Shown one piece after another: positions 3,088-19,315 of a stretch of DNA of 22,215 nt. The notes below the pieces were generated by a model. The model ran no database searches, was not told where the DNA came from, and was given only the letters and a program-made list of their open reading frames with translations. A program made the position numbers and the translations under genes. The stretch is from a virus: positions 1-22,215 of the IMG/VR virus record IMGVR_UViG_3300017738_000044. One strand, given 5' to 3'. Within the stretch, counting starts at the first letter, position 1; each line of letters starts with the position of its first letter.

Positions 3088-4116
3088 TTAATCAAGGGAG
3101 CTAATAACTGTCGCGCGGACGATACCAATGTTCTTGGTTTCGTACACCTGCGACCAGTTACCCACGGTTTCCAGCTGAGCGCGAGTCGGGTTGACCGTGG
3201 TCACGCCCCACTTTGCACCGATCGGGTGGTAGCAGTACCCGAGCGAAATTGCAAGCGCGTCTGACAAACTTAATATGTCACGGTCAGTTTCGGTCCTGAG
3301 CGCAGTGACCTCAGAACCGCCGACAGCGCCCTGGGTCATGAAGTAAACGGCGTATTCCGTGGAAGCGCCGCTGCCTGTGGTCTGCACGTCATCGCTGACC
3401 ACAACCCGCATTCCCATGAAGACCGGGACAGTGGGATTACCAAAGGCACCCTCAAGCGAACCACCGCTTGCGGTTGCGCCTGCAGCGGTATCACCTGCAG
3501 CGACGAAATCGACTGCACGTCTTTCGACAAGCTCGTAATAAGTCGCGCTGTGCATGACCACAGCCGCCAACTTGTCGCCTTGGTCGCCCAAAAGATTTTT
3601 GGCGCGTGCGACGTGGCCAGGCGTCAATGAGGTCGGTGAATCACCAGACTCAGAATCCAAGGACAGGCCAAAGAAGGCGCTGCTGGAAGAGTTGTTATTC
3701 AGCGAACCGAAAACACCAGACAGACAGGAAACAAGATCCTTCTGCTTTTGGTGGTTTACATAGCGGGCCATTTTCTGGCCAATCGCTCCGATGGGGTCGG
3801 AGCCAGATGCCAATGCCGCAAGATCTCTTGCCTCAAAAGCCCTGCCTCTACGAAGCAACACGCCGATCTGACGATCTGCCTCGATTTTGCCTGGTGTCAA
3901 TGACGTGCTGTCGGTCAGCACCTCAAAGTCGCCAGAAAGGTTTGCCTTATAGAAAGGCACGGAAACAAAGTCTCCGCTGCCATCGCCGGAAGTATTCAGC
4001 TCGGCCATCGGTTGCACCACACCCGACTGCAAAAATGCGTCGGAACGGGTCGATTCCTCGATGACGTAAGGGCTAAATACCTCGGGGATGATCAAATCTG
4101 ACCGAAGGGTGGCCAT
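3088..4116 (-). CDS. Major capsid protein
   Basis: This 342-residue protein is the likely capsid shell subunit. The N-terminus (LIIPEVFSPYVIEESTRSDAFLQSGVV) and the segment VSVPFYKANLSGDFEVLTDS then LRRGRAFEARDLAALASGSDPIG are typical of the HK97-fold coat family sometimes annotated as major capsid protein 13-like. A central VMHSATYYELVERRAVDF and a C-terminal IGAKWGVTTVNPTRAQLE also fit. It sits directly downstream of the scaffold gene and upstream of the decoration-like gene. AGGAG lies five bases before the ATG, a strong site. Stop is TAA. Confidence 0.88.
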   Translation of the reverse strand: MATLRSDLIIPEVFSPYVIEESTRSDAFLQSGVVQPMAELNTSGDGSGDFVSVPFYKANLSGDFEVLTDSTSLTPGKIEADRQIGVLLRRGRAFEARDLAALASGSDPIGAIGQKMARYVNHQKQKDLVSCLSGVFGSLNNNSSSSAFFGLSLDSESGDSPTSLTPGHVARAKNLLGDQGDKLAAVVMHSATYYELVERRAVDFVAAGDTAAGATASGGSLEGAFGNPTVPVFMGMRVVVSDDVQTTGSGASTEYAVYFMTQGAVGGSEVTALRTETDRDILSLSDALAISLGYCYHPIGAKWGVTTVNPTRAQLETVGNWSQVYETKNIGIVRATVISSLD

Positions 4117-4189
4117 GATCTCCTGAAGTAGTGTTTACGGTGTGGGCGTAACCCGATTGGCTCGGCGTAGCGTTGCCAGTTGATTCATA

Positions 4190-4891
4190 TTAACGCTCGC
4201 GCAAACGTCTTTCAGCTTCAGCTTTGTAATTCTGCCAATTTTCAGGGTGCTTTCTAATAATTTCACCCAGGGCTGACATGTTGATGCCGCGATTGATGCC
4301 GCCGACGGTCAAGTCACGCAGCAAATCAGGATCTAGGCCACCGCTTGATGCACCCCGCGCTGCAGGTGCGCCACCGCCCTGGGGCTTAGGAACCTTCTGC
4401 ACCCATTCCGGCACGTTGTTGCGAGCCCAGTCAGCGACAGGGATTCGCTCATAGCCATCAACCACCACCGGGCCATTGTTGCCCTGCTGGATTTCCTTAT
4501 CCTTCAAATAATTCCGCATGACTAAATCAGGGTCATGCACAACGTCTGACAGGGCGCTAACCGCAGGCGCAGTCAGCTCAAGGTCACGCACACGGCTCTC
4601 CAGCTCTGCGATGCGTTCATCTTTCTTGGTGCTGTTTTCGCGAAACTGATGCTCTCTGGCTTGTAGTGCTTCGCTGTACTTGCCCTGTGATTCCAGTTGT
4701 TCTTGCTCTGCTTTTGCCTTGAAGTCCATCAACTCTTGGATGTTGACGCCTTCAGGCACTGATTTGGTTTTTTTTAATTTACCAATCAGCTCGTGATTTT
4801 TTCGTTCTAATGCTTCAACGCTGCTTTTAAGCAGATCCAATTCATTCGTGTCTGCTGTAGGCGTAGCCTCTTGCAGTTGTTCTTCCGACAT
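4190..4891 (-). CDS. Head scaffolding protein
   Basis: This 233-residue acidic, strongly helical protein is the likely internal scaffold for capsid assembly. It has long coiled-coil stretches (about residues 17-42 and 52-110) rich in Glu, Lys and Gln. A Gly/Ala-rich hinge with QGGGAPAARGASSGG near residue 175 follows. The protein ends in a basic C-terminal helix, HPENWQNYKAEAERRL, the usual capsid-contacting end of scaffolds. It lies immediately upstream of the major capsid gene, with 73 bases between them. A short inverted repeat (TAACC, 5 bases, GGTTA) lies just upstream of the ATG at about 4895-4909. Confidence 0.8.
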   Translation of the reverse strand: MSEEQLQEATPTADTNELDLLKSSVEALERKNHELIGKLKKTKSVPEGVNIQELMDFKAKAEQEQLESQGKYSEALQAREHQFRENSTKKDERIAELESRVRDLELTAPAVSALSDVVHDPDLVMRNYLKDKEIQQGNNGPVVVDGYERIPVADWARNNVPEWVQKVPKPQGGGAPAARGASSGGLDPDLLRDLTVGGINRGINMSALGEIIRKHPENWQNYKAEAERRLRER

Positions 4892-13193: not shown

Positions 13194-14003
13194 TTAAAAG
13201 GGATCGCCTTCCTGAACACCAAGATGGGTCAGGTAACTGGGTTTGGCTGTGGCTGCTGTGGCAGTTTCGAGGAAGGATTCATAGCGGCCATCACGCAGCC
13301 AACGAAAACAATCGGGGTAGCAGGTCAGGAACCGGCCCTTTTGCTCCCCTCTGGCCTGATCCTTCAACGAAGCAGCCAAAGTGCCTTGTAGGCGCTCCTG
13401 AACGCCTCTGGTGAGCTTTTTGTATTCAGCCCATGCCTTGGGCTTGGATTGGCCAGTCGCTCTGTTTCCAATTTTTTGGTACTGCTGCCAAAAGGCCTGG
13501 AACTCGTCGCTATAGGCATCTGGTCCTGGTTTTCGGCCTTTTGCAGCTTTACTTGCTGTTTGTAGTTCTTTTGTATTTAGTTCTTTTGTATTTAGTTCGG
13601 CGGCAGCTCCTGCCGGGGGGTCCGGCACCATTTGCCGGGGGGTACGGCATTTCCTGCCTAGGGGTGCGGCAGATGCTGCCGGGGGGTCTAAGGACGGTGG
13701 GGCAACGTTGGCCAGGTGGTTAACGGTGACCCGATAGAGGTTTGTGCAGCAGTCGCCGCGATCGTTTCGGCGTGATTCGCGCTGGAGAAGTCCCATGGAC
13801 TCCAACTGCCCAGCGACAGTCCGAGCAGTCCGAACAGAAACACAAGCGCCATCAGCAATGGTTTTGATTGACGGCCAACAGTCGGCGTTTGCTCCGGCGT
13901 AGGTCTGGATGACCCAAAGAACCGCCAACTGATTCGGCTGAAGCGTTCCGCGAATTGCTGTTGGGAGTGACGTAAAAGGGACGCCTTGCGGGATAAATGA
14001 CAT
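13194..14003 (-). CDS. Replication initiator (winged-helix, lambda O-like layout)
   Basis: This 269-residue protein probably binds the phage origin and recruits the helicase. Residues about 20-95 form a winged helix (LQPNQLAVLWVIQTYAG, then WPSIKTIADGACVSVRTARTVAGQLESMGLL), the HTH_36 type of phage and plasmid initiators. Residues 100-150 are a Pro/Ala-rich linker containing ELNTKELNTKEL. The C-terminal domain starts at about residue 165 (DEFQAFWQQYQKIGNRATGQSKPKAWAEYKKL) and looks like the helical helicase-contact region. The linker is encoded by DNA with four 22-bp repeats and an AT-rich repeat, as in lambda O. The gene is divergent from the plus-strand operon at 14061. Confidence 0.75.
   Translation of the reverse strand: MSFIPQGVPFTSLPTAIRGTLQPNQLAVLWVIQTYAGANADCWPSIKTIADGACVSVRTARTVAGQLESMGLLQRESRRNDRGDCCTNLYRVTVNHLANVAPPSLDPPAASAAPLGRKCRTPRQMVPDPPAGAAAELNTKELNTKELQTASKAAKGRKPGPDAYSDEFQAFWQQYQKIGNRATGQSKPKAWAEYKKLTRGVQERLQGTLAASLKDQARGEQKGRFLTCYPDCFRWLRDGRYESFLETATAATAKPSYLTHLGVQEGDPF
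13564..13693. repeat. Iteron-like repeats and AT-rich repeat: likely replication origin
   Basis: Four copies of a 17-base unit start at 13611, 13633, 13655 and 13677, exactly 22 bases apart. Unit 1 reads TGCCGGGGGGTCCGGCA; units 1-3 are themselves inverted (TGCC...GGCA), and unit 4 keeps only the left arm. A half unit (CGGCA at 13601-13605) fits the same period. Beside them lies a 15-base AT-rich tandem repeat (AGTTCTTTTGTATTT at 13564 and 13579, with a partial third copy). Because 22 is not a multiple of three, the units are read in different frames by the initiator gene, so DNA sequence rather than protein appears to be conserved. Confidence 0.7.
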
Positions 14004-14483: not shown

Positions 14484-14538
14484 CTACCAAACACCTACCA
14501 ATTAGGCCCATACTGACTCCAGTTCAGGCAACCACCCC
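14484..14538 (+). promoter_or_regulatory. Repeated promoter-leader element, copy 1
   Basis: CTACCA at 14484-14489 and again at 14495-14500 (11-base period), then eight bases, then CATACT at 14509-14514 as a -10-like hexamer, then a short leader ending CAACCACCCC at 14529-14538 against the ATG. The upstream inverted repeat of the other copies is missing here. The first box lies where a -35 would be. A promoter is inferred from repetition and spacing. Confidence 0.65.
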
Positions 14539-14808
14539 ATGGCTTTCACACTCACCCGCGAAAACGGCACTGCAGGCGTCGAGACCAAAGTGTTTCACCC
14601 CCTGGCTGACGGCTGGGTTCAGATCATCACCAGCTTTAATCAGATTGTTGAATCCCATGTAGCTGAGTGCGTGAACGAATGGGAAGGCATCATGCGCTTT
14701 ACGGGAGAAATCAACCGTCAGATTGTGCCCTGCGTTCACACCAGCGAGCTAAGGACTGAGCAAGCCCGCAAACTTTGGGCAAAACTAAAACTGCAGGGCT
14801 GGGCTTAA
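14539..14808 (+). CDS. Small orphan gene in cassette 1
   Basis: This 89-residue protein begins MAFTLTRENGTAGVETKVFHP and contains GWVQIITSFNQIVESHVAECVNEWEGIMRFTGE, ending with a helix LWAKLKLQGW. I do not know a function; I associate this kind of small protein with marine cyanophages, but cannot verify that. It has no Shine-Dalgarno; the leader is CAACCACCCC next to the ATG. It sits alone between a repeated promoter element and a short hairpin, so it is probably transcribed separately. An early host-takeover role is a guess. Confidence 0.75.
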   Translation: MAFTLTRENGTAGVETKVFHPLADGWVQIITSFNQIVESHVAECVNEWEGIMRFTGEINRQIVPCVHTSELRTEQARKLWAKLKLQGWA

Positions 14809-14825
14809 CCCTAGTTGTAGGGGTT
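14807..14825 (+). terminator. Weak hairpin after cassette 1
   Basis: AACCCTA and TAGGGGTT pair around a GTTG loop with one bulged base. There is no T-tract, so it may be only a partial terminator. It begins in the stop codon of the preceding gene and abuts the next repeated promoter element. Confidence 0.4.
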
Positions 14826-14907
14826 GTGCCGACTCAAAAGGCTGCACAATCCCTACCATTTGGCTACCAGCCAGGCTCATACTTAGCTCAGTTCAGTCAA
14901 CCACCCC
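14824..14907 (+). promoter_or_regulatory. Repeated promoter-leader element, copy 2
   Basis: TTGTGC at 14824-14829 and GCACAA at 14844-14849 form an inverted repeat 14 bases apart. Three bases later come CTACCA at 14853-14858 and 14864-14869 (11-base period), eight bases, CATACT at 14878-14883, and a leader ending CAACCACCCC at 14898-14907. This is the most complete copy of the element. Confidence 0.75.
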
Positions 14908-15147
14908 ATGAACCTCTCCACCTTCTTCGCTGAGAAAGACTTCACCCTCAAGACCTACGAAGTCACCAGCCCTACGACCGGCGACTCGCACATCATCACC
15001 ACCGACGTTGTGATCGATCGCATTCTCAGCACCAAGGGCCAAGAGCGCCAACAGATCACCGGCATCCTTCAGCAACTGGATTTCCGCAACGGCGATTTCC
15101 ACCACTTCTTCAAGCACTTGGCCACCGGCCTCGCTGCTCAGTTCTGA
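14908..15147 (+). CDS. Small orphan gene in cassette 2
   Basis: This 79-residue protein begins MNLSTFFAEKDFTLKTYEVTS and continues with DSHIITTDVVIDRIL, then LQQLDFRNGDFHHFFKHLA. It resembles small uncharacterised proteins I associate with marine picocyanobacterial phages (FFAEK start and LDFRNGD motif); this is from memory. It is preceded by the full promoter element and the SD-free CAACCACCCC leader, and followed at once by a TTCG-loop terminator. Soluble, no membrane segment. Function unknown. Confidence 0.75.
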   Translation: MNLSTFFAEKDFTLKTYEVTSPTTGDSHIITTDVVIDRILSTKGQERQQITGILQQLDFRNGDFHHFFKHLATGLAAQF

Positions 15148-15163
15148 GGCCTTCGGGCCTTTC
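15147..15163 (+). terminator. TTCG-loop terminator after cassette 2
   Basis: AGGCC, loop TTCG, GGCCT (15147-15160) followed by TTCC. The stem begins with the last base of the preceding stop codon. Five perfect base pairs and a stable tetraloop, with a short T-tract. Confidence 0.65.
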
Positions 15164-15176
15164 CGGGGATAACAGA

Positions 15177-15182
15177 GAGGAG
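15177..15182 (+). promoter_or_regulatory. Shine-Dalgarno supporting start 15193
   Basis: GAGGAG lies ten bases before ATG 15193. It favours that start over the internal ATG at 15238, which has no purine-rich site. It contrasts with the neighbouring cassette genes, which have no Shine-Dalgarno. Confidence 0.5.
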
Positions 15183-15192
15183 TCGCCAACTT

Positions 15193-15402
15193 ATGGGCGC
15201 AGGCTCGCCAACCCCGAACCTTTTCTTTCTTATCGCAATGAAATTAATCAAAACTCAGCTCTCTTACGTGGCTAGCTTGATGCGTGAAGACCTGGCCAAT
15301 GGGGTCATGGCCTGGGACACCCCAGAGGGCCAGTCCCTAACCCGTGAAGATATCCGCGAATTGTGCGAGGCCATCGAAGGCTTTCGGGAGGAACTGCAAT
15401 GA
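15193..15402 (+). CDS. Small acidic hypothetical protein
   Basis: This 69-residue protein has an alternative 54-residue form starting at 15238 (MKLIKTQLSYVASLMREDL). The core is amphipathic and helical, with a C-terminal LTREDIRELCEAIEGFREEL. It is not recognised. The longer start is preferred because GAGGAG precedes it, but the first 15 residues look non-conserved and the shorter form is possible. Its stop overlaps the next start (ATGA at 15399-15402), so the two genes form a pair. Confidence 0.6.
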   Translation: MGAGSPTPNLFFLIAMKLIKTQLSYVASLMREDLANGVMAWDTPEGQSLTREDIRELCEAIEGFREELQ

Positions 15403-16400
15403 GCAAACCAAACAGATACCTGAATCCCATGTACGACCACGACCACGGCAATGGTCAGGACAGGATTCAAAAACGTCGTGCCTGGTTGCACGACAAGATG
15501 ACTCGGATGGGCCACCACCCAGACAAATATCAAAAATGGCATGAGGAACTAGAGACCCTCAAACAGCAGTCGAAACAAGCCAAGCAAGAGCCAATCGTAA
15601 GGACTGAGAAATTTGCCGTTAGGCCTGCGGCAATCCTTAAGGATGGAGCATCCCTTAAAGGCTGCACAGATTACGAACTAGAGATCCTGCAAAAGTTTGT
15701 TAATAACGAGATCAGCAGACGCGCAACTGCTAGGCACAAGATCAAGATGCAGCGCGTACAAATAATCCTGCTGGACTACAAAAGACGGGGATGGCTGCCC
15801 GAACACGAAGCATTGGTAGAAGTGCGCCGTGTGATTGTTCAGCAAAAGATTTTTGGCATGGGCAAGAAACGCGCCGCCAAAGATCTAAGCGACCAAATTA
15901 TCCGGGCTATGTGGCGAGGCGATAAGCAGCCATGGGACAAGCATCAAGGCATTGGCGCGATGCCTAGAGGACATTTTGGTTATAAACCAGGCAAGAAAAG
16001 CAAGACCCACTATTACCTAGATCCCAAACAGCTGCTTTGTCATGTCATTGCCCAATGCAAGTACCAAGCCGAAAGAAAGCGAGAACAAGTCGAAGCAGCT
16101 GCTGAACGTAAACGGTTCCATGAGGCGAAGTTGAAAGAGTGGGAGGAAAGGAATAAAGCCCGATCAGCAGACGTTGCAAACGAATGGCATCAACAGATAA
16201 GTGAGCAGAACAGGAAGTTTCGCCAGGCTCTGGTCCGGCATGAGCAGATAAAACAAGAAAACATGGGCGAAAGAATGTATGCAGTTGCGATGCAGACTCA
16301 ACGGCTGCTGGCAAAGCATGAGTTAAACACTATTTCTGTGCCAACTGACGAACCTGCACAATCCCTACCAAAGACCGACCACAAGGGGCAGAATGGGTAG
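15399..16400 (+). CDS. Large basic coiled-coil protein of unknown function
   Basis: This 333-residue protein, highly rich in Lys, Arg, Gln and His, is not recognised. Residues 1-60 include DHDHGNGQDRIQKRRAWLHDK. The middle (residues about 85-190) has LKGCTDYELEILQKFVNNEIS and long helices. Residues about 220-310 form a probable coiled coil (QAERKREQVEAAAERKRFHEAKLKEWEERNKARS). GGGAGG precedes the ATG and the start overlaps the previous stop. Its last 60 bases also contain most of the next repeated promoter element. Nucleic acid binding is likely from charge only. Stop is TAG. Confidence 0.7.
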   Translation: MSKPNRYLNPMYDHDHGNGQDRIQKRRAWLHDKMTRMGHHPDKYQKWHEELETLKQQSKQAKQEPIVRTEKFAVRPAAILKDGASLKGCTDYELEILQKFVNNEISRRATARHKIKMQRVQIILLDYKRRGWLPEHEALVEVRRVIVQQKIFGMGKKRAAKDLSDQIIRAMWRGDKQPWDKHQGIGAMPRGHFGYKPGKKSKTHYYLDPKQLLCHVIAQCKYQAERKREQVEAAAERKRFHEAKLKEWEERNKARSADVANEWHQQISEQNRKFRQALVRHEQIKQENMGERMYAVAMQTQRLLAKHELNTISVPTDEPAQSLPKTDHKGQNG

Positions 16401-16417
16401 GCCTATGCAACCACCCC
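16337..16417 (+). promoter_or_regulatory. Repeated promoter-leader element, copy 3
   Basis: TGTGC at 16337-16341 and GCACAA at 16356-16361 are again 14 bases apart. After three bases come CTACCA at 16365-16370 and CGACCA at 16376-16381 (11-base period), seven bases, CAGAAT at 16389-16394, and CAACCACCCC at 16408-16417. The upstream half lies inside the end of the coding region before it, which shows the element is kept even under coding constraint. Confidence 0.65.
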
Positions 16418-16564
16418 ATGGATCTTGGCTCTAAACACCTGAAAGCCCTTGTGGCCCACCAGGAAGAACTAGACCGCAAGTTACAAGAACAGCACCAGCA
16501 ACTGGTTAAAGACCTCAACCAGTACCTGGCCCAGGAGCGCAAGCGCCTGTTGTCTATCGACTGA
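16418..16564 (+). CDS. Short coiled-coil gene in cassette 3 (48 aa)
   Basis: A 48-codon frame begins MDLGSKHLKALVAHQEELDRK and is one long amphipathic helix rich in Gln, Leu and Lys (QEQHQQLVKDLNQYLAQERKR). It probably oligomerises. It is flanked by the repeated promoter element with its SD-free leader and by a strong terminator five bases after the stop, so the small size is not a reason to dismiss it. Function unknown. Confidence 0.65.
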   Translation: MDLGSKHLKALVAHQEELDRKLQEQHQQLVKDLNQYLAQERKRLLSID

Positions 16565-16568
16565 CCCC

Positions 16569-16590
16569 AGGGGCTTCGGCCCCTTTTGTT
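16569..16590 (+). terminator. Strong TTCG-loop terminator after cassette 3
   Basis: AGGGGC, loop TTCG, GGCCCCT style pairing (16569-16574 with 16579-16584) followed by TTTGTTG. Six perfect pairs plus a T-rich tail. It ends on the first bases of the next repeated element. Confidence 0.85.
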
Positions 16591-16671
16591 GTGCCAACCT
16601 AAAAGGCTGCACAAGGGGTACTAGTCACCTACCAAGGCGGGGCCATACTGACTTCAGTTTCAACCACCCCA
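16589..16671 (+). promoter_or_regulatory. Repeated promoter-leader element, copy 4
   Basis: TTGTGC at 16589-16594 and GCACAA at 16609-16614, 14 bases apart, enclose AAAAGGCT as in copy 2. After three bases come GTACTA at 16618-16623 (weak box) and CTACCA at 16629-16634, nine bases, CATACT at 16644-16649, and CAACCACCCC at 16661-16670, one base before the ATG. Confidence 0.7.
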
Positions 16672-16839
16672 ATGAACTTCTGGACCCCCGAACGCTGCAA
16701 GACCATCTCCACCCTGGTCTTGATGGACAACTCCCTCGAAATGAGTTCCCAGGCAGTTATCACCAACAACTCCGCAAGGAAAGACCGCCTGATGTCCATC
16801 GTCGAGATGATCCAAGCAGAACTGCATTCCCGCTTCTGA
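16672..16839 (+). CDS. Short gene in cassette 4 (55 aa)
   Basis: A 55-codon frame begins MNFWTPERCKTISTLVLMDN and ends RLMSIVEMIQAELHSRF. It is soluble and mostly helical. It is not recognised. The promoter element, leader with CAACCACCCC and the downstream TTCG hairpin are all in the same places as in the other cassettes, which is the main evidence that it is a gene. Confidence 0.65.
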   Translation: MNFWTPERCKTISTLVLMDNSLEMSSQAVITNNSARKDRLMSIVEMIQAELHSRF

Positions 16840-17082: not shown

Positions 17083-17342
17083 CTGATGACTTGAAAATTT
17101 CTCCCGAATTCATGGGGAAACTTATGGCGACCATGGAGCTGATCAGGTTTGAGCATTTCCCAGAACTCGAACCTGTGACCCCTTTGAACTATTTGCAAAT
17201 ACAAGAGTCCATTACAGAACGGCTGGGAATGACAGTTGATACAAATCCTGCCAATCCGACAGTTTCGACTTCAGATACGTTCCAACGCATCTTTTTTGAT
17301 GCCGCAGAACGTACAGGCCTCGACAAACTTATTTTCAAATAG
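17079..17342 (+). CDS. Hypothetical protein
   Basis: This 87-residue protein begins MTDDLKISPEFMGKLMATMEL and is acidic, with mixed helices. It is not recognised. It overlaps the membrane protein gene upstream by ATGA and ends one base before AGGAGG, the ribosome site of the next gene, so the three are co-transcribed. Stop is TAG. Confidence 0.6.
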   Translation: MTDDLKISPEFMGKLMATMELIRFEHFPELEPVTPLNYLQIQESITERLGMTVDTNPANPTVSTSDTFQRIFFDAAERTGLDKLIFK

Positions 17343-17346
17343 GAGG
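17341..17346 (+). promoter_or_regulatory. AGGAGG ribosome site deciding GTG 17357
   Basis: A full AGGAGG sits ten bases before GTG 17357. It supports that start over the internal ATG at 17417. Confidence 0.6.
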
Positions 17347-17356
17347 ACAAACCCCA

Positions 17357-17608
17357 GTGCTACAACCACCCCTGGCATCGCTTCTGAAGTCTGCCCACGC
17401 AGATTCTAGGCCCCAAATGACTCAAAGCGAAATTACCCGAATGTTTCATATCGCCCAGGTGCATGGCGGCGGCTTTGTCCGTAAGTTGGCCACCGCTGGC
17501 TTGGTCGCTGACCCGGACAACGTGGCCAAAATCTTGCGGACCTGGCCTGAGCTTCAAGGCATATATGGTCCTGGCGGCATCCATTGGGATCGGGAGGACG
17601 TGAAGTGA
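17357..17608 (+). CDS. Hypothetical protein before the exonuclease
   Basis: This 83-residue protein starts at GTG with a good ribosome site. Residues 22-60 (TQSEITRMFHIAQVHGGGFVRKLATAGLVADPDN) look helical and may form a small DNA-contact fold. The end is WPELQGIYGPGGIHWDRED. Its stop overlaps the GTG start of the exonuclease gene (GTGA), so it belongs to the recombination operon. Codons 3-6 contain CAACCACCCC, the leader sequence of the cassette genes. Function unknown. Confidence 0.6.
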   Translation: MLQPPLASLLKSAHADSRPQMTQSEITRMFHIAQVHGGGFVRKLATAGLVADPDNVAKILRTWPELQGIYGPGGIHWDREDVK

Positions 17609-18378: not shown

Positions 18379-19070
18379 TGGACATGTCCACGATGCTTCT
18401 TGATCAAGCCGCCAAGGAATCCTTGGCTGCACCGCTTGACCTCAACAACGTTAAAAAGCGCAAGGGTGCTGGAGGTCGCACGCTTGACTACATCTCCGGC
18501 GAACACGCCATCTCAGAAGCCAACCGAATCTTTGGGTTTGATGGCTGGAGCACTGAAACCCTTGACATGAAGTGTGTAAACGAAAAGCAGCCCACATACA
18601 TTGCCCGCGTTCGCGTTCGTGCCGGTGGTGTTACCCGTGAAGGTTGGGGAGGCGATAACAGCCACGACCATGAAAACGCCGTTAAAGGTGCAGAGACTGA
18701 TGCGATCAAACGAGCCCTGCGGACGTTTGGCAACCAGTTTGGTTTGCCGTTATATGACAAGGAAGAGAACGCTGAGAACCTGACCCGTGGATCAGAGCCC
18801 GCACCAAAGCCCCGGCCAACGCCTAGCCCGGAGTTCAAGCGCACTCAAGAGATCGTCGAAAAAGATATTAAAACGGGGCCCTTTTATATCTGGGAAACCA
18901 AAATTAAGAACGCCGGCCCTGGTTCTAACTGGATGGCCATGGAAGCCGCCATTCGCAACGGCAAAGACAAAAATGGAAACGATGCTGGATTAACCGACGC
19001 CCATAAACAAGACCTCATGAAGGCGTACAAGGCAAGAAAAGCCGAAGTTGAAAAGGTTGCAACTGCATGA
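18378..19070 (+). CDS. Rad52/Rad22-family single-strand annealing protein
   Basis: This 230-residue protein anneals complementary single strands. The core (about residues 35-127) reads LDYISGEHAISEANRIFGFDGWSTE, then REGWGGDN and VKGAETDAIKRALRTFGNQFGLPLYD, the classic Rad52/22 fold signature. Residues 140-155 are a Pro-rich linker, and the C-terminal 70 residues are a basic helical tail that may contact the neighbouring exonuclease or SSB-like protein. The start overlaps the exonuclease stop (TAATG) and the stop overlaps the next start (ATGA), giving tight coupling. Confidence 0.92.
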   Translation: MDMSTMLLDQAAKESLAAPLDLNNVKKRKGAGGRTLDYISGEHAISEANRIFGFDGWSTETLDMKCVNEKQPTYIARVRVRAGGVTREGWGGDNSHDHENAVKGAETDAIKRALRTFGNQFGLPLYDKEENAENLTRGSEPAPKPRPTPSPEFKRTQEIVEKDIKTGPFYIWETKIKNAGPGSNWMAMEAAIRNGKDKNGNDAGLTDAHKQDLMKAYKARKAEVEKVATA

Positions 19071-19315
19071 CTATGACCCAGGCCAACTATGACCCGAATT
19101 ACTCCGGGCCCTACTTTTCAGAACAGCAGCTAGCGCAGCGTTGGGGCAGACACCCCAACACCCTGCGCCGTTACCGACAAGCAGGCACTGGGCCCGCTTT
19201 CTACGAAGTGCGGCAGGTTTTTGGCCCCCGCGCTCCACGCATCAGATACAAGCTTCATGACGTGCTGGCCTTTGAGCTGGCCAACTCCATTACCCCCGAC
19301 AAACTCAATGGCTGA
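19067..19315 (+). CDS. Excisionase/MerR-like helix-turn-helix protein
   Basis: This 82-residue protein contains FSEQQLAQRWGRHPNTLRRYRQAGTGPAFYEVR, the pattern of winged helix excisionase-like or AlpA-like HTH domains (HTH_17 type). RIRYKLHDVLAFELAN follows as the wing and helix. Such proteins act in excision, or as small transcription regulators. No integrase is visible here, so a regulatory role in the recombination operon is as likely. Start overlaps the Rad52-type gene's stop. Confidence 0.7.
   Translation: MTMTQANYDPNYSGPYFSEQQLAQRWGRHPNTLRRYRQAGTGPAFYEVRQVFGPRAPRIRYKLHDVLAFELANSITPDKLNG

Follow-up and report, generated by a model that had tools for sequence, protein, structure and literature searches.

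An element of ~85 bp was found four times in the window (the whole stretch of DNA analyzed here, a 22-kb viral contig), each time 5′ of a small gene: 14539, 14908, 16418, and 16672. The analysis establishes the element with its spacing, an apparent restriction of it to one phage family, and the co-variation of its two direct-repeat boxes with a winged helix-turn-helix (HTH) protein encoded at 19067, including one recombinant. We propose, with a probability of roughly 0.6, that the phage encodes a BldC/Xis-like activator which, through this promoter-plus-leader module, drives a regulon composed of exchangeable cassettes of small genes.

Genomic context

The right half of the window carried early-type genes on the plus strand (RusA, 14013; PDDEXK exonuclease, 17584; Rad52-like protein, 18378; winged HTH protein, 19067); packaging and head genes occupied the left half, on the minus strand. 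Megablast against phage records returned no similarity for the window. The host is probably a marine picocyanobacterium, since a head protein resembled Synechococcus phage KBS-S-2A (41% identity over half its length) and DUF1651, to which gene 14539 was weakly matched, occurs in small cyanobacterial genomes. Within the replication-initiator gene (13601-13687), a 22-nt tandem repeat, CGGCA(N)..TGCCGGGGGGT, was present, with a similar array in a distant relative (L152:1349-1430); these repeats are possible origin iterons.

14484..14541, plus strand: copy 1; box 1 14484-14489, box 2 14495-14500, CATACT 14509-14514, predicted +1 A14521, CAACCACCCC from 14529, leader to 14538, ATG 14539
14539..14808, plus strand: cargo gene 1; 89 aa, sub-threshold DUF1651-like C-terminus
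14824..14910, plus strand: copy 2; dyad 14824-14849, box 1 14853-14858, box 2 14864-14869, CATACT 14878-14883, predicted +1 A14890, CAACCACCCC from 14898, leader 14890-14907, ATG 14908
14908..15147, plus strand: cargo gene 2; 79 aa, PHROG 6004 (a PHROG without assigned function)
16336..16420, plus strand: copy 3; dyad 16336-16361, box 1 16365-16370, box 2 16376-16381, CAGAAT 16389-16394, CAACCACCCC 16408-16417, ATG 16418
16418..16564, plus strand: cargo gene 3; 48 aa, intrinsic-terminator-like hairpin downstream (16569-16584)
16589..16674, plus strand: copy 4; dyad 16589-16614, box 1 16618-16623, box 2 16629-16634, CATACT 16644-16649, predicted +1 A16656, CAACCACCCC from 16661, leader to 16671, ATG 16672
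16672..16839, plus strand: cargo gene 4; 55 aa
19067..19315, plus strand: 82-aa winged-HTH protein; sub-threshold HTH_17 match, recognition helix 30-39 with lineage-specific TLRRYR

Architecture of the element

A base-by-base check gave the following order: a 26-bp dyad (TTGTGC-N14-GCACAA), 3 bases, two CTACCA-like boxes, 7-9 bases, a CATACT or CAGAAT hexamer, and a leader whose 3′ end, CAACCACCCC, stood next to the ATG. The boxes were 11 bp apart (start to start) in 4/4 window copies, and the same spacing was found in aligned relatives. This agreed with the arrangement described in the earlier note, with small corrections. In copy 4, box 1 is GTACTA, and one additional A precedes the ATG. Box 2 of copy 3 is CGACCA. 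The dyad, previously reported for three copies, was exact in copies 2 and 4 and carried one mismatch (CTGTGC, left arm) in copy 3, ending 3 bases 5′ of box 1 in each; in copy 1, only its left half (TGTGAC) was present, within the 3′ end of rusA. The hexamer of copy 3 lay within the 3′ end of a 345-aa ORF (15363-16400), and this copy was without the CAGTTCAG start region. A fifth CAACCACCCC at 17363, just within a coding region, is not an element copy.

The leader has no Shine-Dalgarno (SD) sequence and has the constant form AGUUCAGNCAACCACCCC. When the A of CAGTTC is taken as the predicted +1, the leader is ~18 nt long, the boxes are located at approximately -37..-32 and -26..-21, and the dyad is centered at approximately -53.5. 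The start region TAGCTCAGTTCAG (14884-14896) resembles a tRNA D-arm; ARAGORN found no tRNA, and the likeness is probably a coincidence.

Random occurrence of the full pattern at an equal rate was one of the refuting conditions set in the earlier note. The pattern occurred four times in the window, all on the plus strand, and in none of 1000 dinucleotide shuffles, and the same counts were obtained with the boxes and -10 alone; single parts appeared at 0.059 (boxes alone), 0.004 (dyad), and 0.069 (leader) per shuffle.

The description of the cargo as orphan genes was fair: no named family was found except the weak DUF1651 match and PHROG 6004. Transcription units look mostly single-gene, judging from the hairpin 3′ of cargo gene 3 and from GGCC-TTCG-GGCC, read from the sequence, 3′ of cargo gene 2. 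The slot 3′ of copy 1 held a different gene in most relatives, diverging from the first residues on, and the sole relative of cargo gene 14539 was found in a phage with C-type boxes (see below), which together suggest that cassettes move between lineages.

Box types

The search for the motif in related phages proposed in the earlier note yielded ~65 further distinct copies in ~30 viral contigs, with the same order and spacing. Three main kinds of boxes were distinguished: A, TACCA/TACCA (the window); C, CTGCA or CTGTA/CAGCA; and B, CTGCA/TAGCA or TGGCA. A few were mixed (CACAA-type in c37584_5455, c06735, and c33182). Identity between A and C was 0.32 for box 1 and 0.61 for box 2, against 0.90 and 0.99, respectively, within A. 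Elsewhere in the element, A and C shared 0.88 identity in the -10, 0.98 in CAACCACCCC, and 0.65 in the dyad region (0.67 within A). Thus, the dyad, -10, and leader remained constant across phage lineages, while both boxes changed together, which is the trace expected if a single binding protein had changed. A perfect dyad, TTGTGCCAG-N8-CTGGCACAA, was present in some B phages.

At 17337-17375, AAATAGGAGGACAAACCCC(A)-GTG-NNN-CAACCACCCCTGG was nearly invariant at the DNA level in A, B, and C phages, third codon positions included; the sequence upstream of this seam was variable, and there were no boxes. Conservation of this kind (CAACCACCCCTGG after AGGAGGACAAACCCC, in a coding start without boxes), the variability of genes between seams, and the Rad52-like and PDDEXK proteins encoded by the phage would all fit a function of the repeats as homology seams for cassette swapping via a Rad52/exonuclease system, with the promoter function secondary. 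We regard this as improbable, because the boxes, unlike a seam, differ between lineages and change jointly at a fixed spacing.

Co-variation with the HTH protein

Box type co-varied with the recognition helix and wing of the HTH protein. Contigs with a TLRRYR (A-type) HTH carried TACCA-type elements only (9/9), and no TACCA-type element was found with a TLARYR HTH (0/10); these counts refer to contigs in which the HTH gene was accompanied by one element or more, and the shared ancestry of contigs weakens the association. Differences between A and non-A proteins in the HTH alignment were located mainly at 34, 38, and 39 in the recognition helix and at 47, 49, a one-residue indel, and 56 in the wing, with two elsewhere (11 and 18). 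The C-type counterpart of the window's protein is encoded at L030:4807-5055. Among TLARYR phages, boxes without the G pattern were found in copy 4 of c06735 (CACAA/CACCA) and copy 3 of c37961 (CATCA/GAACA); therefore, single residues do not map onto single bases, and a simple G-for-C code does not hold.

The decisive co-segregation is one event, a single recombinant carrying both the HTH gene and elements: G010 (IMGVR 3300030085_003278), in which an A-type HTH gene lies in an otherwise mostly C-type genome and the boxes were A-type in 4/4 elements. Most of the 18 genes compared were closer to C-type than to A-type phages (exo, 96 vs 86%; RHH, 96 vs 84%; gene 16418, 92 vs 75%; endolysin, 100 vs 92%), including the neighbors exo, rad52, RHH, and endolysin; g19643 was a near tie. 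The HTH gene showed 91-93% identity to A-type and 67-72% to C-type, and the A-like stretch was limited to ~19050-19260. Two further contigs, c37963_4119 and c37847_3011, had the same HTH swap (A-type HTH gene, C-type flanks), and both end before the elements.

Of the three candidate readers named in the earlier note, the HTH protein co-varied with the boxes. The RHH protein (11992) did not track box type: those of G010 and a C-box phage are 96% identical, yet their boxes differ. The sampled B- and C-type contigs yielded no gene for the NrdR-like zinc ribbon (12281).

Distribution and the question of a host reader

As far as searched, the element was apparently confined to one phage family. The leader pattern gave nine matches in 84,980 species, none followed by ATG and none with a -10 upstream, and in 121 genomes of a picocyanobacterial family, CAACCACCCCATG gave 11 vs 5 for the control. 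The -10 plus leader (≤2 mismatches) matched once in 201 genomes, at the mismatch limit, and the dyad showed no enrichment in Cyanobiaceae: 3 genomes vs 4 with the control. Since the prokaryote genomes searched, Cyanobiaceae among them, matched only at chance level, the system appears to be the phage's own, and the reading as a host regulon was dropped. Of the dedicated regulon with a phage or host activator postulated in the earlier note, the version with a phage activator is supported by the family restriction and by the tracking of the HTH protein by the boxes. The version in which a host factor or host sigma reads the elements, and the HTH protein correlates with them only through common phage lineage, draws on the common ancestry of most contigs, by which association alone is weak, and on the sigma-70-like hexamer. 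It is nevertheless quite unlikely in view of the genome searches and of G010, where HTH gene and boxes are jointly A-type inside a mostly C-type genome.

The element was absent from the isolates KBS-S-2A, S-H1, P-HS2, and MED4-117, despite distant HTH homologues in the first three. Period-11 direct repeats in other phages gave weak hints only. In L152 (the distant relative mentioned above; HTH 46% identical), several TTGGCC-type direct repeats with a period of 11 were present at 3815-4722, perhaps its own operator type, with weak statistics. S-H1 (L068) perhaps has an analogous leader: on its minus strand, near 3259 and 13390, GCCGGAGCCGCACCCAATC and then a stretch rich in CCACCCCAC precede the ATG at two starts.

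Fold of the HTH protein and related systems

The AlphaFold model of the 19067 protein was a winged helix of medium confidence (pLDDT 73.5), with helices at 19-25, 30-39, and 63-72 and two strands between; the protein is short and without a dimerization domain. The closest solved structures were RdfS (Z 7.1), BldC on DNA (6.7 and 6.5), and the GIsul2 excisionase (6.4), with Pukovnik Xis lower (5.6); matches with Z <8 are not decisive. Sequence identity with BldC was ~20%, and searching the sequences of solved structures with the HTH alignment as the query gave no match.

BldC of Streptomyces, a MerR-like winged HTH protein without a dimerization domain, is likewise short, regulates transcription, binds direct repeats head to tail, and uses its recognition helix and wing on DNA, with Arg30 making base contacts and the wing in the minor groove (PMC5859096). 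From the aligned ranges in the structure match, Arg30 would correspond to the invariant R35 of the 19067 protein, next to the variable residue 34. BldC differs in being a host developmental regulator and in its sites, 9-bp repeats with an AT-rich part (PMC5859096), whereas the phage boxes contain C/G and are 11 bp apart. Excisionases also bind direct repeats head to tail, and excisionase-like proteins have direct-repeat sites 10-11 bp apart (PMC7498355). Accordingly, 186 Apl, P2 Cox, lambda and Pukovnik Xis, and RdfS share with the present system the winged HTH and direct repeats one turn apart, and Apl, in addition, promoter control (PMC7498355). In contrast to these systems, the sites of the phage lie at four separate promoters, with two boxes each, rather than at an attachment site, and no integrase (PF00589) was found in six records, possibly fragments, including a 39-kb one. 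A role as an excisionase (a recombination directionality factor acting with an integrase at an attachment site) is therefore unlikely.

Lambda CII-activated promoters carry TTGCN6TTGC around -35. The likeness to CII-type activation drawn in the earlier note extended to geometry only: a direct repeat approximately one helical turn apart at -35 of a weak promoter. Here, TACCA-N6-TACCA is located at about -36 and -25, the period is 11 rather than 10, and the spacer between -35 and -10 contains box 2. No match to PF05269 (CII) was obtained in Pfam scans covering the 19067 protein and further window proteins, part of the left-arm ORFs among them, and the fold of the candidate, HTH_17-like, was nearest to BldC, RdfS, and Xis, so that identity with the CII protein was rejected.

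Proposed mechanism

A phage activator is proposed because of the winged-helix fold, the likeness to RdfS and BldC, the direct-repeat binding known from excisionase-like proteins, and the lack of an integrase in the records searched. The 19067 protein would bind both boxes in a head-to-tail arrangement, at a separation of one helical turn, and would then activate host RNA polymerase at the CATACT -10 without a good -35. This would switch on mostly single-gene cassettes for small proteins, probably for host takeover or accessory purposes. The upstream dyad is probably recognized by another factor that is better conserved, and the leader probably gives SD-independent translation initiation. Binding by the protein, its action as an activator and not a repressor, the position at which transcription starts, the host, and what the dyad and leader do are our inferences from the sequences.

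The same box/HTH co-variation would be expected if the 19067 protein bound these boxes as a repressor that shuts off or delays the small genes. Early promoters are repressed by Apl and Cox (PMC7498355), BldC acts as a developmental repressor (PMC5859096), and the boxes are placed where bound protein could block RNA polymerase. The best TTGACA matches at 16-18 bp spacing averaged 3.06/6 against 2.37/6 in shuffled sequences, which is compatible with a weak -35. However, there was no strong -35 upstream of CATACT, a sigma-70 promoter scan listed none of the four copies as promoter-like, and the near-fixed spacing from box 2 to the -10 better suits an activator; repression, the main alternative, is thus the less likely mode of action. 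That a phage-encoded sigma factor reads the -35/-10 region is very improbable: an RpoD-like sigma factor is present in the related isolate KBS-S-2A (L067:7779-8708), but no Sigma70_r4 domain was found in 19 family records including a 39-kb one.

Tentatively, and with some doubt, a bolder reading may be put forward: in lytic cyanophages, a BldC/Xis-like protein without an integrase would serve as the dedicated activator of a plug-in regulon, promoter-leader cassettes would be exchanged, a single-gene activator swap (residue 34 Arg/Ala and the wing) would go with re-specification of all such promoters, and an SD-less leader would replace the Shine-Dalgarno sequence.

A probable regulator and its operator code can thus be named for a family of uncultured viruses that are probably marine cyanophages and have not previously been studied for gene control. 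The three box types and three HTH types form a natural specificity-swap series, and the constant SD-less leader poses a separate question on translation initiation. The element is also a usable tag, by which small genes behind it may be assigned to one regulon even without homology.
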